Below, in pieces: positions 37,888-44,260 of a stretch of 64,000 nt of DNA (position 1 is its first letter; each line of letters begins with the position of its first letter). Origin of the DNA: Halegenticoccus tardaugens (lineage in GTDB: Archaea > Halobacteriota > Halobacteria > Halobacteriales > Haloferacaceae); the NCBI RefSeq assembly GCF_004116405.1, contig NZ_SDIC01000006.1, forward strand, positions 186,001-250,000, written 5' to 3'. Below the pieces are notes generated by a model. It was not told the DNA's origin. It made no database searches and saw only the letters and a list, made by a program, of their open reading frames with translations. A program made the translations under genes and the position numbers.

Positions 37888-40800
37888 ATGGAAGACCTCA
37901 GCGACCAGTACGCCCCCGAGGAGGTCGAGTCCTCGGCGGAGGCGCACTGGGAGGAACACGACGCCTACGAGGCGACGAGGGAGGCGCACGCCGACGACCC
38001 GCCCTTCTTTTTCGTCGACGGGCCGCCGTACACCTCAGGGCAGATGCACCTCGGGACGGCGTGGAACAAGACCCTGAAGGACGCCGTCATCCGCTACAAG
38101 CGGATGTGCGGCCACCGGGTGACCGACCGCCCCGGCTACGACATGCACGGGCTCCCCATCGAGGTCAAGGTCGAGCAGGAACTCGGCTTCGAGAACAAGC
38201 GCGACATCGAGGAACTGGGCGTCGAGGCGTTCATCGAGGAGTGCAAGACGTTCGCCGAGCGCAACCGCGAGGCCATGGACGAGGACTTCGAGTCGATGGG
38301 CGTCTGGATGGACTGGGACGACCCCTACAAGACGCTCAGCCCCGAGTACATGGAGGCCACGTGGTGGGCGTTCGAGCGGGTCCACGAGAACGGCCTCGTC
38401 AACCGGGGCAAGCGCGCCGTCAACCAGTGCCCCCGCTGTGAGACCGCCATCGCCGACAACGAGGTCGAGTACCACGAGATCGAGTCGCCCAGCATCTACG
38501 TGAAGTTCCCCCTGCGGGACCGCGAGGGCTCTCTCGTCATCTGGACCACCACCCCGTGGACCATCCCGGCGAACACGTTCGTCGCCGTCGACGGCGAGAT
38601 GACGTACCAGGCCGTCCGCGCGGAGAAGGACGGAGAGGGCGAGGCTCGGAGCGCCTCGGAGAGTTCGAGCGGCGACGAGCCGCGAGAGAGCGAACTGCTC
38701 TACCTCGCCGAACCCGTCGTCGAGGAGGTCCTGAAGAAGGGCCGCTACGACGACTACGAGGTCGTCGACGAGGTCGCGGGCGAGGAGATGGTCGGCTGGG
38801 AGTACGACCACCCCCTTGCCGAGGAGGTCCCCGACCACGTCGACTTCGAGGGCGCGCTGCAGGTGTACACCGCCGACTACGTCGAGGCCGACAGAACCGG
38901 TCTCGTCCACTCCGCGCCGGGACACGGCCAGGAGGACTTCCAGCGCGGCCGGGAACTCGGGCTGGAGATCTTCTCGCCCGTCGCCGGCAACGGCGAGTAC
39001 ACAGAGGAAGCCGGAAAGTACGCCGGGACGTTCGTCCGCGACGCGAACGACGAGATCATCGCCGATCTCGACTCGAAGGATCTGCTCCTCGCCAGCGGGA
39101 CGCACAGCCACCGGTACGGCCAGTGCTGGCGCTGCGACACCGACATCGTGTTCCTCGCCACCGACCAGTGGTTCATCACGGTCACGGACGTGAAGGACGA
39201 CCTCCTCGCGAACATCGACGACAGCGAGTGGCACCCGCAGTGGGCGCGGGACAACCGCTTTCGCAACTTCGTCGAGGACGCGCCGGACTGGAACGTCTCC
39301 CGGCAGCGCTACTGGGGCATTCCGCTGCCCATCTGGGTGCCCGAGGACGCCGACGGCGACGTCTCCGCCGAGGAGGTAATCGTCGTCGGCACCCGCGAGG
39401 AGCTCGCAGAGCGAGTCGATCAGGACGTCGACCCCGACGAGATGGACCTCCACCGCCCGGCGGTCGACGACCTGACCATCACCGAGGGGGGAACGACCTA
39501 CCGACGGGTCCCGGACGTGTTCGACGTGTGGATCGACTCCTCCGTCGCCTCGTGGGGGACGCTGAACTACCCGAGCGAGACGGACGAGTTCGAGGAGCTG
39601 TGGCCCGCGGACCTCATCATCGAGGCGCACGACCAGACCCGCGGCTGGTTCTGGTCGCAACTCGGGATGGGGACCGCCGCCGTCGGCGAGGTGCCCTACG
39701 AGGAGGTCCTGATGCACGGGTTCGCCAACGACAAGGACGGACGGAAGATGTCCAAGTCGGTCGGCAACATCGTCACGCCGCACGAGGCGATCGAGCGCGC
39801 GGGGCGCGACCCCCTCAGGGCGTACCTGCTCAGTCACGACCAGCAGGGCGCGGACCTCGCGTTCGAGTGGGACGGCCTCGCGGACACGCAGGCCACCCTC
39901 AACATCCTCTGGAACGTCTTCCGTTTCCCGCTGCCGTACATGCGGCTGGACGGGTACGATCCGGCCGAGGCCGACCTGTCGGACGGGGACCTCACCGTGG
40001 TCGACGAGTGGGTGCTCTCGCGCCTGCAGTCGGTGAAAGCGGAGGTGGCGCGGGCGTGGGACGACTACGAGATTCACGTCGCGCTGAACGCGCTCTTCGA
40101 CTTCCTGACGGACGACGTCTCGCGCTTCTACGTGAAGGCGATCCGCGAGCGGATGTGGGAGGAGGAGGACTCCGCCTCCAAGCGCGGCGCGTACGCGACG
40201 CTCTCCGTCGTCCTCCTCGAAACGGTGCGGCTCCTCGCGCCCTTCACGCCGTTCCTCGCAGAGGAGATGTACCAGCACCTCGACGGGGGCGAGGCGACGG
40301 TCCACATGCTCTCGCAACCCGAGTTCGACGCCGACCGCCACGACCCCGAACTGGAGGAGAACATGGCCGTCCTCCGGAAGGTCGAGGAGGCCGCCGCGAA
40401 CGCCCGCCAGCAGGGGGGTCGGAAGCTTCGCTGGCCCGTCCAGCGCGTGATCGTCGAGACGGACGACGAGCGCGTGGCCGACGCGGTTCGCTCGCTCGAC
40501 GAACTGCTCCTCGACCGCGTCAACGCCCGGTCGCTGGAGGTCACGGAGGAGTTCGACGAACTCATAGAGCGCGCCGAACCGCAGATGAGCGTCATCGGGC
40601 CGGCGTTCGGCGGCGACGCGCAGAAGATCATGGGCGCGGTGCAGGGCAAGACCCGCGACGAGATCGAGTCGGGGGTGACGGTCGACGGCGAGACGTACGA
40701 CCTCACGGACGAGATGGTCGCCTACCGCGCGGAGCCGCCGGCGGACGTCTCCGGCGCGGAGTTCGAGGGCGGATCGGTGTACGTCGACACGGCGCTCACC

Positions 40801-41211
40801 GAGGACATCGAAGCCGAGGGGTACGCCCGCGACGTCGTCCGCCGGGTACAGGAGATGCGAAAACAGCTCGACCTCGACGTGGAAGAGCGCATCCGGACCC
40901 GCCTCGACGTCGCCGACGAGCGCGTCCGCGAGCTCGTCGACCGCCACCGGGAGTTCGTCGCCGAGGAGACCCGGACGGCCGAGTTCGTGGACGAGCCGTC
41001 GGATGTGGGCGACGTCGTCGCGGACGTCGATCTCGACGGTGACGAGACCGTCTCGGACGTCGATCTCGACGACGACGATGTCGTCTCGAACTTCGATCTC
41101 GACGGCGATGAAGCCGTCTCGAACTTCGATCTCGTCGAAACGTGGGACGTCGAGGGCGTGACCGTCACCATCGGGATCCAGCGCCTCGAAGCCGAAGAAC
41201 AGGCGGCTTGA
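37888..41211 (+). CDS. ileS: isoleucyl-tRNA synthetase
   Basis: This 1107-residue class I synthetase charges tRNA-Ile and edits valine. The HIGH-type signature is GPPYTSGQMHLGTAWNKTL and the KMSKS loop is DGRKMSKSVGNIV. The editing CP1 domain lies between them (DYVEADRTGLVHSAPGHGQE). The start MEDLSDQYAPEEVES at 37888 is preferred to an ATA/ATG-rich upstream extension. Two haloarchaeal insertions are seen: an acidic Ser/Glu linker (EKDGEGEARSASESSSGDEP) in the editing domain, and near the C-terminus three tandem 11-residue repeats (DVDLDGDETVS type). The C-terminus ends ETWDVEGVTVTIGIQRLE. Confidence 0.96.
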   Translation: MEDLSDQYAPEEVESSAEAHWEEHDAYEATREAHADDPPFFFVDGPPYTSGQMHLGTAWNKTLKDAVIRYKRMCGHRVTDRPGYDMHGLPIEVKVEQELGFENKRDIEELGVEAFIEECKTFAERNREAMDEDFESMGVWMDWDDPYKTLSPEYMEATWWAFERVHENGLVNRGKRAVNQCPRCETAIADNEVEYHEIESPSIYVKFPLRDREGSLVIWTTTPWTIPANTFVAVDGEMTYQAVRAEKDGEGEARSASESSSGDEPRESELLYLAEPVVEEVLKKGRYDDYEVVDEVAGEEMVGWEYDHPLAEEVPDHVDFEGALQVYTADYVEADRTGLVHSAPGHGQEDFQRGRELGLEIFSPVAGNGEYTEEAGKYAGTFVRDANDEIIADLDSKDLLLASGTHSHRYGQCWRCDTDIVFLATDQWFITVTDVKDDLLANIDDSEWHPQWARDNRFRNFVEDAPDWNVSRQRYWGIPLPIWVPEDADGDVSAEEVIVVGTREELAERVDQDVDPDEMDLHRPAVDDLTITEGGTTYRRVPDVFDVWIDSSVASWGTLNYPSETDEFEELWPADLIIEAHDQTRGWFWSQLGMGTAAVGEVPYEEVLMHGFANDKDGRKMSKSVGNIVTPHEAIERAGRDPLRAYLLSHDQQGADLAFEWDGLADTQATLNILWNVFRFPLPYMRLDGYDPAEADLSDGDLTVVDEWVLSRLQSVKAEVARAWDDYEIHVALNALFDFLTDDVSRFYVKAIRERMWEEEDSASKRGAYATLSVVLLETVRLLAPFTPFLAEEMYQHLDGGEATVHMLSQPEFDADRHDPELEENMAVLRKVEEAAANARQQGGRKLRWPVQRVIVETDDERVADAVRSLDELLLDRVNARSLEVTEEFDELIERAEPQMSVIGPAFGGDAQKIMGAVQGKTRDEIESGVTVDGETYDLTDEMVAYRAEPPADVSGAEFEGGSVYVDTALTEDIEAEGYARDVVRRVQEMRKQLDLDVEERIRTRLDVADERVRELVDRHREFVAEETRTAEFVDEPSDVGDVVADVDLDGDETVSDVDLDDDDVVSNFDLDGDEAVSNFDLVETWDVEGVTVTIGIQRLEAEEQAA
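41023..41136 (+). repeat. 33-bp tandem repeat inside ileS
   Basis: Three in-frame 33-base units at 41023-41055, 41056-41088 and 41089-41121, plus a partial fourth, encode DVDLDGDETVS, DVDLDDDDVVS, NFDLDGDEAVS and NFDLVET. The copies differ at a few positions, which argues against a very recent or artefactual expansion. Confidence 0.85.
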
Positions 41212-41260: not shown

Positions 41261-42103
41261 CTATTTCTTCTTTCGCGATCCCTGCCGGAGCGTCGAGTAT
41301 CGCCGCACCGCGTTCATGTCCGCCCGATCGCTCGACGGCACGGTCGAAACGTGGGACCGACCGCGTCCGCCGACGCCAGACGACGCGCCGCCCGCGTCCG
41401 CTTCGTCCGCTTCGTCTTCGCTCTCCGATTCGTCCGCTTCGTCGCCCTCCTCGTCGCGTTCGTCCCCCTCGCTGACGGATTTGAGCGCGTCCGTGACCCC
41501 GCGAAGCTTGTCGGAGAGGTCCGAGACGGAGCCGAGACCGCTCTCGTCGTCCGTTTCCTCGCCTTCGTCGGCGTCGCGCGCTCCGGTGCCGCTTTCGTCG
41601 GCATCCTCGCCATCGCCGCTCTCGTCCGCGTCGCCCTCGGCCTCGCCCTCTTCGTCTTGGTCGGGTAAAAACTCGGACAACAACCCGCTCAGGCTCGTAC
41701 CCTCCTTCCCCCCGCCTCCGTCGCCGTCCGCGGCGTCGGCGTCGGGGAAGGTCGCGAGCCGCTCTTCGAGCTCTCCGTCGTCTCCCGTCGCCGCGGCTTC
41801 GAGGCGGTTCAGCCAGAGGAGTTTGCGCAGCCGGACGAGCGGCTCGGGGTCGGCGCGGGCGACGATGCCGGGGAGGTCGGACGGCTCGATCTCCTCCGGC
41901 AGGTCGGTGAATCCCGCCGCCGCGAGCAGGTCTTCGAGCGATGCGCGTTCGAGCGCGTCCCCGCCCTCCCGAGCGATGCGCCGGAGTTCCTCCCGGTCGT
42001 CCTCGGAGAGTTCCGGTCCGCCGTCTCCCCCCGTCGCCGACTCCACGCGGTCTTCGACGTCCACGAGGAGTTCTTCGAGCGTTTCCGCCTGTTCGTTCGT
42101 CAT
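41261..42103 (-). CDS. acidic cluster protein D, unknown function
   Basis: This 280-residue protein is last in a four-gene minus-strand cluster. The N-terminal ~125 residues are predicted helical (TLEELLVDVEDRVESATG, ERASLEDLLAAAGFTDLPEE, LVRLRKLLWLNRLEAA). A long Asp/Glu/Gly/Ser linker (about 125-240) follows. The C-terminus switches to basic (AVRRYSTLRQGSRKKK). No known domain, signal or membrane segment is recognised. It starts 55 bases after protein C stops and ends 49 bases from the convergent ileS. The helix-acidic linker-basic tail layout suggests a scaffold or adaptor, but that is inference. Confidence 0.6.
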   Translation of the reverse strand: MTNEQAETLEELLVDVEDRVESATGGDGGPELSEDDREELRRIAREGGDALERASLEDLLAAAGFTDLPEEIEPSDLPGIVARADPEPLVRLRKLLWLNRLEAAATGDDGELEERLATFPDADAADGDGGGGKEGTSLSGLLSEFLPDQDEEGEAEGDADESGDGEDADESGTGARDADEGEETDDESGLGSVSDLSDKLRGVTDALKSVSEGDERDEEGDEADESESEDEADEADAGGASSGVGGRGRSHVSTVPSSDRADMNAVRRYSTLRQGSRKKK

Positions 42104-42158
42104 GGTGAATCGGGTACGCGAATCGGTTCGGGTCGAGTACGGCTCCCCCGCGACTCTC

Positions 42159-42968
42159 TCAGTCCGTCTCTTCCCCCTCCGATTCGTCCTCCCCTTCGGG
42201 TTCGCTTTCCGCCTCCGTTTCGCTTTCGGCCGCCACGTCCTCGGAGAACCGTTCCGCGATCCGCTCGGTCATTTCGTCCTTGCCGAGGTTGGCCTTGACG
42301 CCGACCTGCTTCGCGAGCGACTGGAGGTCCCGGTACGACATGACGTCGAGGAGTTCGCGGTACGTCTCCGCTTTCAACTCTCCGAGGTCGTCCTCCGAGA
42401 GGTCGCCGAGTTCGATCGGGACGGCTTCGTCCGTCCCGCTTTCGGCCTCTCCCTCTTGCGCTTCGGTTCCCTCCTCCGTCTCGCCCTTTTCCTCTTCGGT
42501 CGCTTCGGCTTCGGCCTCCTCGGCTTCGTCCTCCTCCGTCTCGTCTTCCTCCGTCTCGTCCGCTTCGACCGCCGTCTCCTCCGTTTCCTCTGGCCCCGCC
42601 GCCCCCTCGGCGAGTTCGGTCAGCCGGTCTTCGAGCGCGTCGCGGAAGCCGCTCGTCTCCGCCGCCGTCCGCAGCGCGGTCCAGAACGCTTCGAGCACGC
42701 GTTCGAGCGACGACGGCGTCGCTCCGTCGCCCTCGTCGCGTTCCTCGCTCTTCCTCGACGGGGCGTCCCGGACGCGCCTCCCGGCGCGCCGACCGACCTC
42801 GCGTCCGGCCGTCGCCCCGACCGCGCCGCCGACCGCCTTTCCGAGCTTCGCGCCGTCTATCTTCTCGGCGACGTTTCCCTCGCCGATCAGATCGCCGACG
42901 TCGAGTTGCTCGTCCAGTTCGTCCCTGATGGCCCGCTTGATCGCCGACCCGCTCCCGTCCTCGCTCAC
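42159..42968 (-). CDS. acidic cluster protein C with glycine-zipper and SAP/Rho-N-like motif
   Basis: This 269-residue protein has an N-terminal helical segment (AIKRAIRDELDEQLDVGDLI), then a glycine-zipper-like stretch, KLGKAVGGAVGATAGREVG followed by RRAGRRVRD. A helix (LERVLEAFWTALRTAAETSG) and a Glu-rich linker (~125-185) follow. A compact C-terminal motif, SYRDLQSLAKQVGVKANLGK then DEMTERIAERF, resembles SAP or Rho N-terminal nucleic-acid-binding motifs. An acidic tail closes the protein. Glycine zippers favour helix packing in membranes or oligomers. It lies 69 bases after B and 55 before D in the same orientation. Function unknown. Confidence 0.6.
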   Translation of the reverse strand: MSEDGSGSAIKRAIRDELDEQLDVGDLIGEGNVAEKIDGAKLGKAVGGAVGATAGREVGRRAGRRVRDAPSRKSEERDEGDGATPSSLERVLEAFWTALRTAAETSGFRDALEDRLTELAEGAAGPEETEETAVEADETEEDETEEDEAEEAEAEATEEEKGETEEGTEAQEGEAESGTDEAVPIELGDLSEDDLGELKAETYRELLDVMSYRDLQSLAKQVGVKANLGKDEMTERIAERFSEDVAAESETEAESEPEGEDESEGEETD

Positions 42969-43037
42969 GGCTCACCACCGCCGGCTCTCCGCGTGTCCGT
43001 CGGCGCGGGGCGCTGGACCGGACGGGGCACTCCCGAT

Positions 43038-43373
43038 TCACCCCTCCTCGTCCGTCTCGCTGGTCTCATCGTCGTCCCCGTTTCCGTCGTCGCTCCCCTC
43101 GGCCTCGTCGCTTTCGGCCGCCTCGTCGTCCCCCTCGGCTCGACCTTCGGACCGCAGGACGTTCGCGGCCAGCCACGTACCGAGGAGGCCGCCGAGCCAC
43201 TCGCCGAGGTGTCGGCCGACGAGCTCGCCCAGCCGACCGCCGATCGCCTCGGCGGCGGACTCGCCCCCTTCGAGCGCGCCTTCGAGCTCCGTCCCCTCGA
43301 AGATGTCCTCGAAGTCCACGTTCTCGCCGACCTCGTCGACGCCGACCGCTTCCACCAGCGTTTCGTCGCTCAC
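43038..43373 (-). CDS. acidic cluster protein B, short glycine-zipper protein
   Basis: This 111-residue protein starts at a GTG that overlaps the stop of protein A (GTGA). Residues ~1-40 are acidic and helical (VDFEDIFEGTELEGALEGGE). Residues ~44-72 form an amphipathic Gly-spaced helix (AIGGRLGELVGRHLGEWLGG, then LLGTWLAANVL). The rest is a Glu/Asp/Ser tail. The Gly-xxx-Gly spacing parallels that in protein C, suggesting the two associate with each other or with a membrane surface. No database family can be named from sequence alone. Confidence 0.6.
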   Translation of the reverse strand: MSDETLVEAVGVDEVGENVDFEDIFEGTELEGALEGGESAAEAIGGRLGELVGRHLGEWLGGLLGTWLAANVLRSEGRAEGDDEAAESDEAEGSDDGNGDDDETSETDEEG

Positions 43374-44032
43374 GCGTCGGCCCCCTCCCCGCCGTTGTCG
43401 TCGCCGCTCGACTTGCCGTCGAAGAGCTGGCGGACGAGTTCCTTGAGCAACTGCGTGAGCAGTTCCTCGAGCGGCAGCTCTTTCACGATGTCGCCGAGCA
43501 CGCCCCGAACCCGCTCCGCGAGCGACGAGACGAACCCCTTCGAATCGTCGTCGTCGTCCCCGCCTCCGAAGAGACCCCCGAGCAACCCGCCGGGGAGGAG
43601 GTCGTCGAGCCCGCCGCCGTTCAACAGGTTCGCGACCGCCGAGAGGAGATTGCCGACCAGCCGACCCTCGCCCGGGACGGCCGAGACGTCGAGGACGACC
43701 TCGTCGAGGTCGAGCTCCAGACCGAGGAGGTTCAAGAACAGCCCCTCGAGGTCGAGAAACAGGACCGTAGCCCCTTCCTCCTCGCCTTCGCTCTCTTCTC
43801 CTTCGCCCTCCTCTTCGCCGTCCTCACTACCTTCCTCCTCTCCGCCGTCCTCGCCTTCCTCTTCGCCGTTGCTCTCTTCTTCTCCCTCGTCTTCCTCCCC
43901 GCCGTCTGTCAGGAGCCGAACCTCCGTCAACGACCCCCGCGGGGCGGCGGACGGTTCGTCGAATTCGGGGTTGAGGACGCGGATCTTCTGTACCTGTTCG
44001 CTCTCGGGGGAACCTCTTCTCTCGGCGGTCAT
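43370..44032 (-). CDS. acidic cluster protein A with LLG-rich hydrophobic domain
   Basis: This 220-residue protein is first in the cluster. After MTAERRGSPESEQVQKIRVL comes a short conserved-looking region (LNPEFDEPSAAPRGSLTEVR). An almost pure Glu/Gly stretch (~47-86) follows. Next is a hydrophobic domain, LFLDLEGLFLNLLGLELDLD then EVVLDVSAVPGEGRLVGNLL. A Gly-rich turn and an amphipathic helix (ELPLEELLTQLLKELVRQLF) close the protein. The LLGL...VPGxGxLxGNLL pattern recalls a motif that I remember from many bacterial and archaeal hypothetical proteins, but its function is not known. The ATG at 44032 is chosen over a longer frame because a TATA-like box lies at 44063-44070. Confidence 0.6.
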   Translation of the reverse strand: MTAERRGSPESEQVQKIRVLNPEFDEPSAAPRGSLTEVRLLTDGGEEDEGEEESNGEEEGEDGGEEEGSEDGEEEGEGEESEGEEEGATVLFLDLEGLFLNLLGLELDLDEVVLDVSAVPGEGRLVGNLLSAVANLLNGGGLDDLLPGGLLGGLFGGGDDDDDSKGFVSSLAERVRGVLGDIVKELPLEELLTQLLKELVRQLFDGKSSGDDNGGEGADA

Positions 44033-44062: not shown

Positions 44063-44070
44063 GATTAAAT
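44063..44070 (-). promoter_or_regulatory. TATA-like box of the acidic four-gene cluster
   Basis: The minus strand reads ATTTAATC 31-38 bases before the ATG of protein A, the expected distance for a haloarchaeal promoter with a leader of under ten bases. No equally good box precedes B, C or D, so one transcript is likely. Confidence 0.55.
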
Positions 44071-44260
44071 CCCTACTGGCCGCTCCCGGACGGCCGACCG
44101 GAACGACGGCCGACCCGCGAGAGTTCGTTCCCCCCACCCCGGGTGACAGAACGGCGGAGCGCTCGCCTCCGGACCGCGGAGGGGTTTTGTCCGCTCGGCA
44201 CTTCGTCCCTCACGTGATGCAGGACCTCACTCGCCTCCGTCGAATCGGGGTGCGTCGAAC

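Follow-up and report, generated by a model that had tools for sequence, protein, structure and literature searches.

A four-gene module associated with haloarchaeal gas-vesicle clusters that lack GvpC

Four neighbouring genes for acidic proteins in Halegenticoccus tardaugens, here called A to D, very probably belong to one module associated with gas vesicles, the buoyancy organelles, and it is likely that this module is an accessory one dedicated to the GvpC-less type of haloarchaeal gas vesicle. The window, which is the whole stretch of 64,000 nucleotides analysed, corresponds to positions 186001-250000 of haloarchaeal contig C11 in this genome (G000), and the features concerned are the following.

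43370..44032, minus strand: gene A, 220 aa; open reading frame of a conserved family, dN/dS 0.21
43038..43373, minus strand: gene B, 111 aa; open reading frame of a conserved family, with a GTGA overlap with A
42159..42968, minus strand: gene C, 269 aa; open reading frame of a conserved family, found in 95 of 96 A-bearing genomes
41261..42103, minus strand: gene D, 280 aa; open reading frame of a conserved family, with homology to gene X of gvp operons
44065..44081, minus strand: promoter block GGCCAGTAGGGATTTAA with a TATA-like stretch; identical in Halegenticoccus soli

The first-pass annotation of four minus-strand genes of 220, 111, 269 and 280 residues was confirmed, as was the coupling of the first two, A ending in GCG TGA and B beginning with GTG AGC. 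The TATA-like box that it placed ahead of the genes was found as ATTTAATC about 45 nt before the start of A, within the 17-nt block GGCCAGTAGGGATTTAA (44081-44065), and its Glu/Asp-rich linkers and glycine zippers are likewise present, the former as long acidic stretches in all four proteins and the latter in B and C. The genes are flanked by ileS (37888-41211, plus strand) and a glycerol-3-phosphate dehydrogenase gene (44282, plus strand). In H. soli of the same genus (G001) they occupy the equivalent site in unchanged order, with amino-acid identities of 78 (A), 68 (B), 66 (C) and 53% (D) and dN/dS values of 0.21, 0.31, 0.35 and 0.52, respectively, and A-D are thus genuine proteins under purifying selection. 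Scans of A-D, X and GvpI against Pfam and NCBIfam gave nothing above cut-off, Pfam scans of A-D, and of the alignments of A and C, contained no phasin match, and a PDB sequence search with profiles of A-D returned no credible match. The four proteins did not each turn out to belong to an unrelated known family. No homologue of A was found in the plasmid collection.

The link of A-D to gas vesicles is well supported. Gene A was found in 11 of 40 relatives, with C at the same site in mostly those same genomes, and a scan of named genomes yielded 65 haloarchaeal loci. Annotation with home-made profiles showed the order A-B-C-D in most A loci, in dozens of genomes, so that the expected recurrence of the genes as a set was observed, and this conserved synteny together with co-inheritance across haloarchaea bears out the proposal of a coherent system. 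Co-occurrence was counted for A and gvpA (PF00741) in the same 292 Halobacteria genomes, where the first pass gave A in 98, PF00741 in 120 and both in 96. Two candidates for A without gvp (G015 and G190) were marginal matches to acidic linkers that a deeper A profile did not confirm, and gvp is therefore present in all 96 A genomes, compared with 120 of the full 292 (Fisher 1e-54, with counts inflated by related genomes); 95 of the 96 also have C. Kinship was handled by a genus-level test alone, in which A occurs in 35 of 78 genera, all within the 48 gvp genera (p 1e-11). No case of A-D without gvp was seen among the 292 genomes. Homologues were not scattered singly in general, the exceptions being the core of A and the C-terminal half of C, which do occur alone elsewhere: C was matched in 10 gvp-minus genomes, strongly in three (G031, G033 and G297), and in these three the match covers only the SAP/acidic half.

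Physical linkage points the same way. Approximately 18 of 73 A loci adjoin gvp genes, some within the operon, and in 4 of the first 10 relatives the A-D genes stand directly beside a gas-vesicle cluster, Pfam identifying GvpA, O, F, G, H, J, K and L in such clusters. Five loci (L031, L081, L083, L086 and L100) have A, in some cases accompanied by B, in the operon itself, placed between gvpF/gvpH and X, and the cases of A in the operon include G027 and several Halocatena-type loci. The majority of genomes, H. tardaugens included, have A-D at a distance from gvp; in H. tardaugens a complete gvpA-O / F-G-H-X-J-K-L-M cluster is located on another contig (L063; gvpK read by eye). The earlier remark that no gas-vesicle partner is present thus holds inside the 64-kb window, which contains no gvp genes and from which the remark arose, but not for the genome. 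Compared with the classical gvpACNO-DEFGHIJKLM cluster of Halobacterium and Haloferax mediterranei, the A-D type has the same core of GvpA, F, G, H, J, K, L, M and O; it differs in being without GvpC, in having an extended GvpI (X), in missing GvpN in 36 of 96 A genomes (profile search) and in the addition of A-D, either next to gvp or at another locus. Clusters without gvpC/D/E are already known from some haloarchaea (PMC4390858, PMC3403918).

Some peculiarities of the gvp genes themselves were observed in these genomes. Orphan gvpA genes lie far from the complete cluster in H. tardaugens (L064 9219-9494, C7:47350) and in G036 (L074 8296-8559). The GvpO of GvpC-less clusters often has an N-terminal cysteine/histidine domain, DUF5763 (L030 11169-11627 and L063 12054-12671 among others), and in L031 and L068 a different acidic extension takes its place.

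The distribution of A-D excludes that of GvpC. A strong GvpC match (PF05465) was detected in 11 of the 292 genomes, all of them gvp-positive, and neither A nor C is present in any of the 11 (A/GvpC exclusion within gvp-positive genomes, p 2e-9). A marginal GvpC match (E 7e-4) was obtained in one genome with A, G248. Both types are found even within one genus (g43), G047 having A and G051 having GvpC, and a search of the H. tardaugens genome gave no GvpC. GvpN (TIGR02640) is present in 11/11 GvpC genomes and in 60/96 A genomes. Similar to A-D, GvpC, the outer reinforcing protein, is accessory, hydrophilic and helix-rich, and the two are mutually exclusive across genomes; they differ in that no sequence relation is detectable and the Halo_GVPC repeats (PF05465) have no match in A-D. 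Thirteen gvp-positive genomes have neither A nor a strong GvpC (among them G007, G091, G141, G171, G193, G199, G246, G251, G265, G268, G285 and G290), and A-D may therefore not be essential.

Gene D ties the module to the gvp operon by homology. In GvpC-less clusters a gene of 263-371 aa, X, stands between gvpH and gvpJ and encodes a helical N-domain, an acidic linker and a GvpI C-terminus (E 1e-12 against GvpI), for example:

L063, 9231-10124: gene X, between gvpH and gvpJ
L030, 13410-14204: gene X, between gvpH and gvpJ

D consists of a five-helix N-domain, an acidic linker and a tail, STVPSSDRADMNAVRRYST, and its family retains the helical domain and a tail of the form STVPSSxRADMxxxxRxSTMP. 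The structural model of D shows a helical domain with pLDDT >90 over most of residues 1-120 and disorder in the remainder, and a fold search of PDB and BFVD gave nothing with E <0.1. Profile comparison aligned D with X over 234 columns (HHalign 99.5%, E 2.7e-23), and the N-domain (E 1.3e-14) and the tail (E 1.5e-10) were each significant by themselves, so the acidic linkers do not account for the match. No significant match was obtained when D was compared directly with GvpI, and the box RYS...RIYGxRF at the end of GvpI was absent from the D tails inspected; D was therefore classed as a paralogue of X, the gvp-operon gene that carries GvpI, and not as GvpI. Common to D and X (the Nmag_0338 type) are a helical N-domain and an STVP...RxST tail, whereas D is acidic overall, not basic, and is usually found outside the gvp operon with A-C. 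Nmag_0338 of Natrialba magadii has been described as distantly homologous to gvpI and extended at the N-terminus by >200 residues (PMC3403918). In Halobacterium, loss of GvpI results in extremely long vesicles and loss of GvpC in long, weak ones, and GvpI binds GvpH, GvpF and GvpL (PMC4390858, PMC7688916). The earlier view of D as an adaptor falls short of this relationship, and there is a good chance that D acts like GvpI/X. In Haladaptatus (L098, L109 and L117) a second compact module was noticed, in which an X/D-like gene adjoins A and B, in two of the three also C, apart from the main A-B-C-D operon.

B and C are related to each other. B combines the motif NVDFEDIFEGT (NVDFEELFEGT in the family consensus) with a glycine zipper and an acidic tail, and is paralogous to the N-terminal part of C (HHalign 99.7%, E 5e-26), which has a glycine zipper, an acidic linker and a SAP-like motif near its C-terminus. 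B is fused to the SAP-like end of C in G036 and G038. The SAP/Rho-N-like motif of the first-pass annotation stands as far as its sequence, SYRELQSxAKxVGVKANLSREEM, is strongly conserved in the family, but the assignment to PF18953 is below threshold (18.6 bits against a cut-off of 26.3; E 0.0015). The bridging of C to nucleic acid proposed in that annotation is hypothetical. C, and by eye B, also shows local likeness to the Pfam motifs Gly-zipper_Omp, Rick_17kDa_Anti and SAP_new25, with every one of these matches below the curated cut-off.

In A, a DGGE motif at the N-terminus is followed by an acidic linker, the core VLFLDLEGLFLNLLGLELDLDEVVLDVSAVPGEGRLVGNLLSAVANLL and C-terminal helices, and all of these, the core in the form LLGL...GNLLGNLL, are conserved across the family. 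A beta hairpin (88-117) and a helix (125-138) were predicted with low confidence (pLDDT 55), and a fold search of this weak model against PDB gave no usable match. The predicted hairpin-helix and the likeness of LLGLEV to VVGIEI prompted a comparison of A with GvpA, and the idea of a divergent GvpA was rejected: the A core aligned with the GvpA/J/M profiles (PF00741) at an HHalign probability of <1%, and the GvpA score was within that of column shuffles. A has no detectable relation to GvpA or GvpC. The core, as LLGL...GNLLGNLLSAVAGLL, was also seen in secreted proteins of Salipaludibacillus (Bacillota; L106 9680-10267 and L122) with no gvp genes recognised nearby, and the domain is thus not confined to a gas-vesicle setting.

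Promoter similarity supports, and does not prove, that A-D and gvpA are co-regulated, since the sequences compared are related and the promoter test is phylogenetically redundant. Ahead of A, the two Halegenticoccus genomes have the identical block GGCCAGTAGGGATTTAA, which resembles the gvpA promoter block GGCCAGTGCGATTAA of H. tardaugens (C9:511663), and in both GGCCAGT-N4-TTAA is found upstream of gvpA at a comparable distance. Genome-wide, the block shows no enrichment (4 sites in each genome with the spacings that were tried), so that promoter sharing in Halegenticoccus is only suggestive. TTGC/GCA repeats and CCAA near -55 are common to the A and gvpA promoters of Natrialbaceae-type and Haladaptatus-type genomes. 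With a matrix built from 33 gvpA upstreams, 29 A upstreams scored above 432 controls at widths 20 (p 3e-10) and 24 (p 5e-12), mostly with matches near -55, and not significantly so at width 16; the reverse test, from an A matrix to gvpA, was weaker.

It is very improbable that A-D have no functional tie to gas vesicles and that both were simply inherited or transferred in the same lineages. Related genomes do inflate the counts and most A-D operons are unlinked to gvp, but gvp in every A genome with support at the genus level, recurrent adjacency to and insertion in the gvp operon, the homology of D and X, and exclusion with GvpC even inside one genus all speak against such a coincidence. A regulatory function, in which C would bind DNA by its SAP-like motif and the module would replace the missing regulators GvpD/GvpE, also seems unlikely. 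The conserved motif would suit a regulator, as would the frequent separation of the module from gvp, and clusters of the GvpC-less type have been reported without gvpD/E (PMC4390858, PMC3403918). However, the SAP match of C is under the cut-off, the proteins are strongly acidic, the glycine zippers and the A core are unlike regulators, the relative of D is an assembly protein (X/GvpI), and some GvpC-bearing species, such as Haloquadratum, are also without gvpDE (PMC5496347).

A little less unlikely is that the GvpC-less cluster and A-D make not a buoyant vesicle but a gvp-derived compartment, small, few in number or without a gas filling, for which A-D would be the specific coat. The accessory set is entirely different, GvpN is missing in over a third of A genomes (36/96), and the species named with this cluster type were reported as gas-vesicle-negative under laboratory conditions (PMC4390858), so that the system as a whole may not be expressed or may have another product. 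Against this, the core genes GvpA, F, G, J, K, L, M and O are present, are recognised by the standard gas-vesicle families, and have been described as enough for vesicles (PMC4390858).

We therefore favour a function on the vesicle itself, where A-D probably stand in for GvpC by forming or controlling the outer surface of the vesicle and its size. The shell or coat assembly proposed earlier is a plausible reading; the coat role is what we infer. D would dock on the gas-vesicle assembly complex via its STVP tail and helical domain, like GvpI/X, and help to limit or shape the growth of the shell. B and C, through their glycine-zipper helices, and A, through its hairpin-plus-helix core, could bind the vesicle surface, and the long Glu/Asp linkers would form an outer brush that is soluble and repulsive in the salt-rich cytoplasm. 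As a set, A-D would do the job that GvpC has in Halobacterium, namely reinforcing and shaping the vesicles and keeping them apart. That A-C are a surface layer replacing GvpC is a tentative proposal with nearly even chances, and somewhat more tentatively, the GvpC-less cluster and the module could together mark a second, previously unobserved class of gas vesicle in archaea, or of gvp-derived compartment. Its outer coat would be a wholly different one, made of A, B and C, and D would be a duplicated regulator of size resembling GvpI.

In the open-access literature we found no earlier description of the four-gene module, its mutual exclusion with GvpC or the relation of D to X. According to a recent review, GvpC is one of the genes that every gvp cluster conserves (PMC9501494); an earlier review leaves open why many haloarchaea have GvpC-less clusters and no visible vesicles (PMC4390858). 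The present results give these clusters their missing second locus and four new proteins that attempts at expressing or testing them should include. Gas vesicles are applied in ultrasound imaging and antigen display, and A-D provide four new candidates for the control of vesicle surface or size, and a named, testable replacement for GvpC. If a second vesicle class does exist, it would be the commoner haloarchaeal type, with 96 of the 120 gvp-bearing genomes in our sample.
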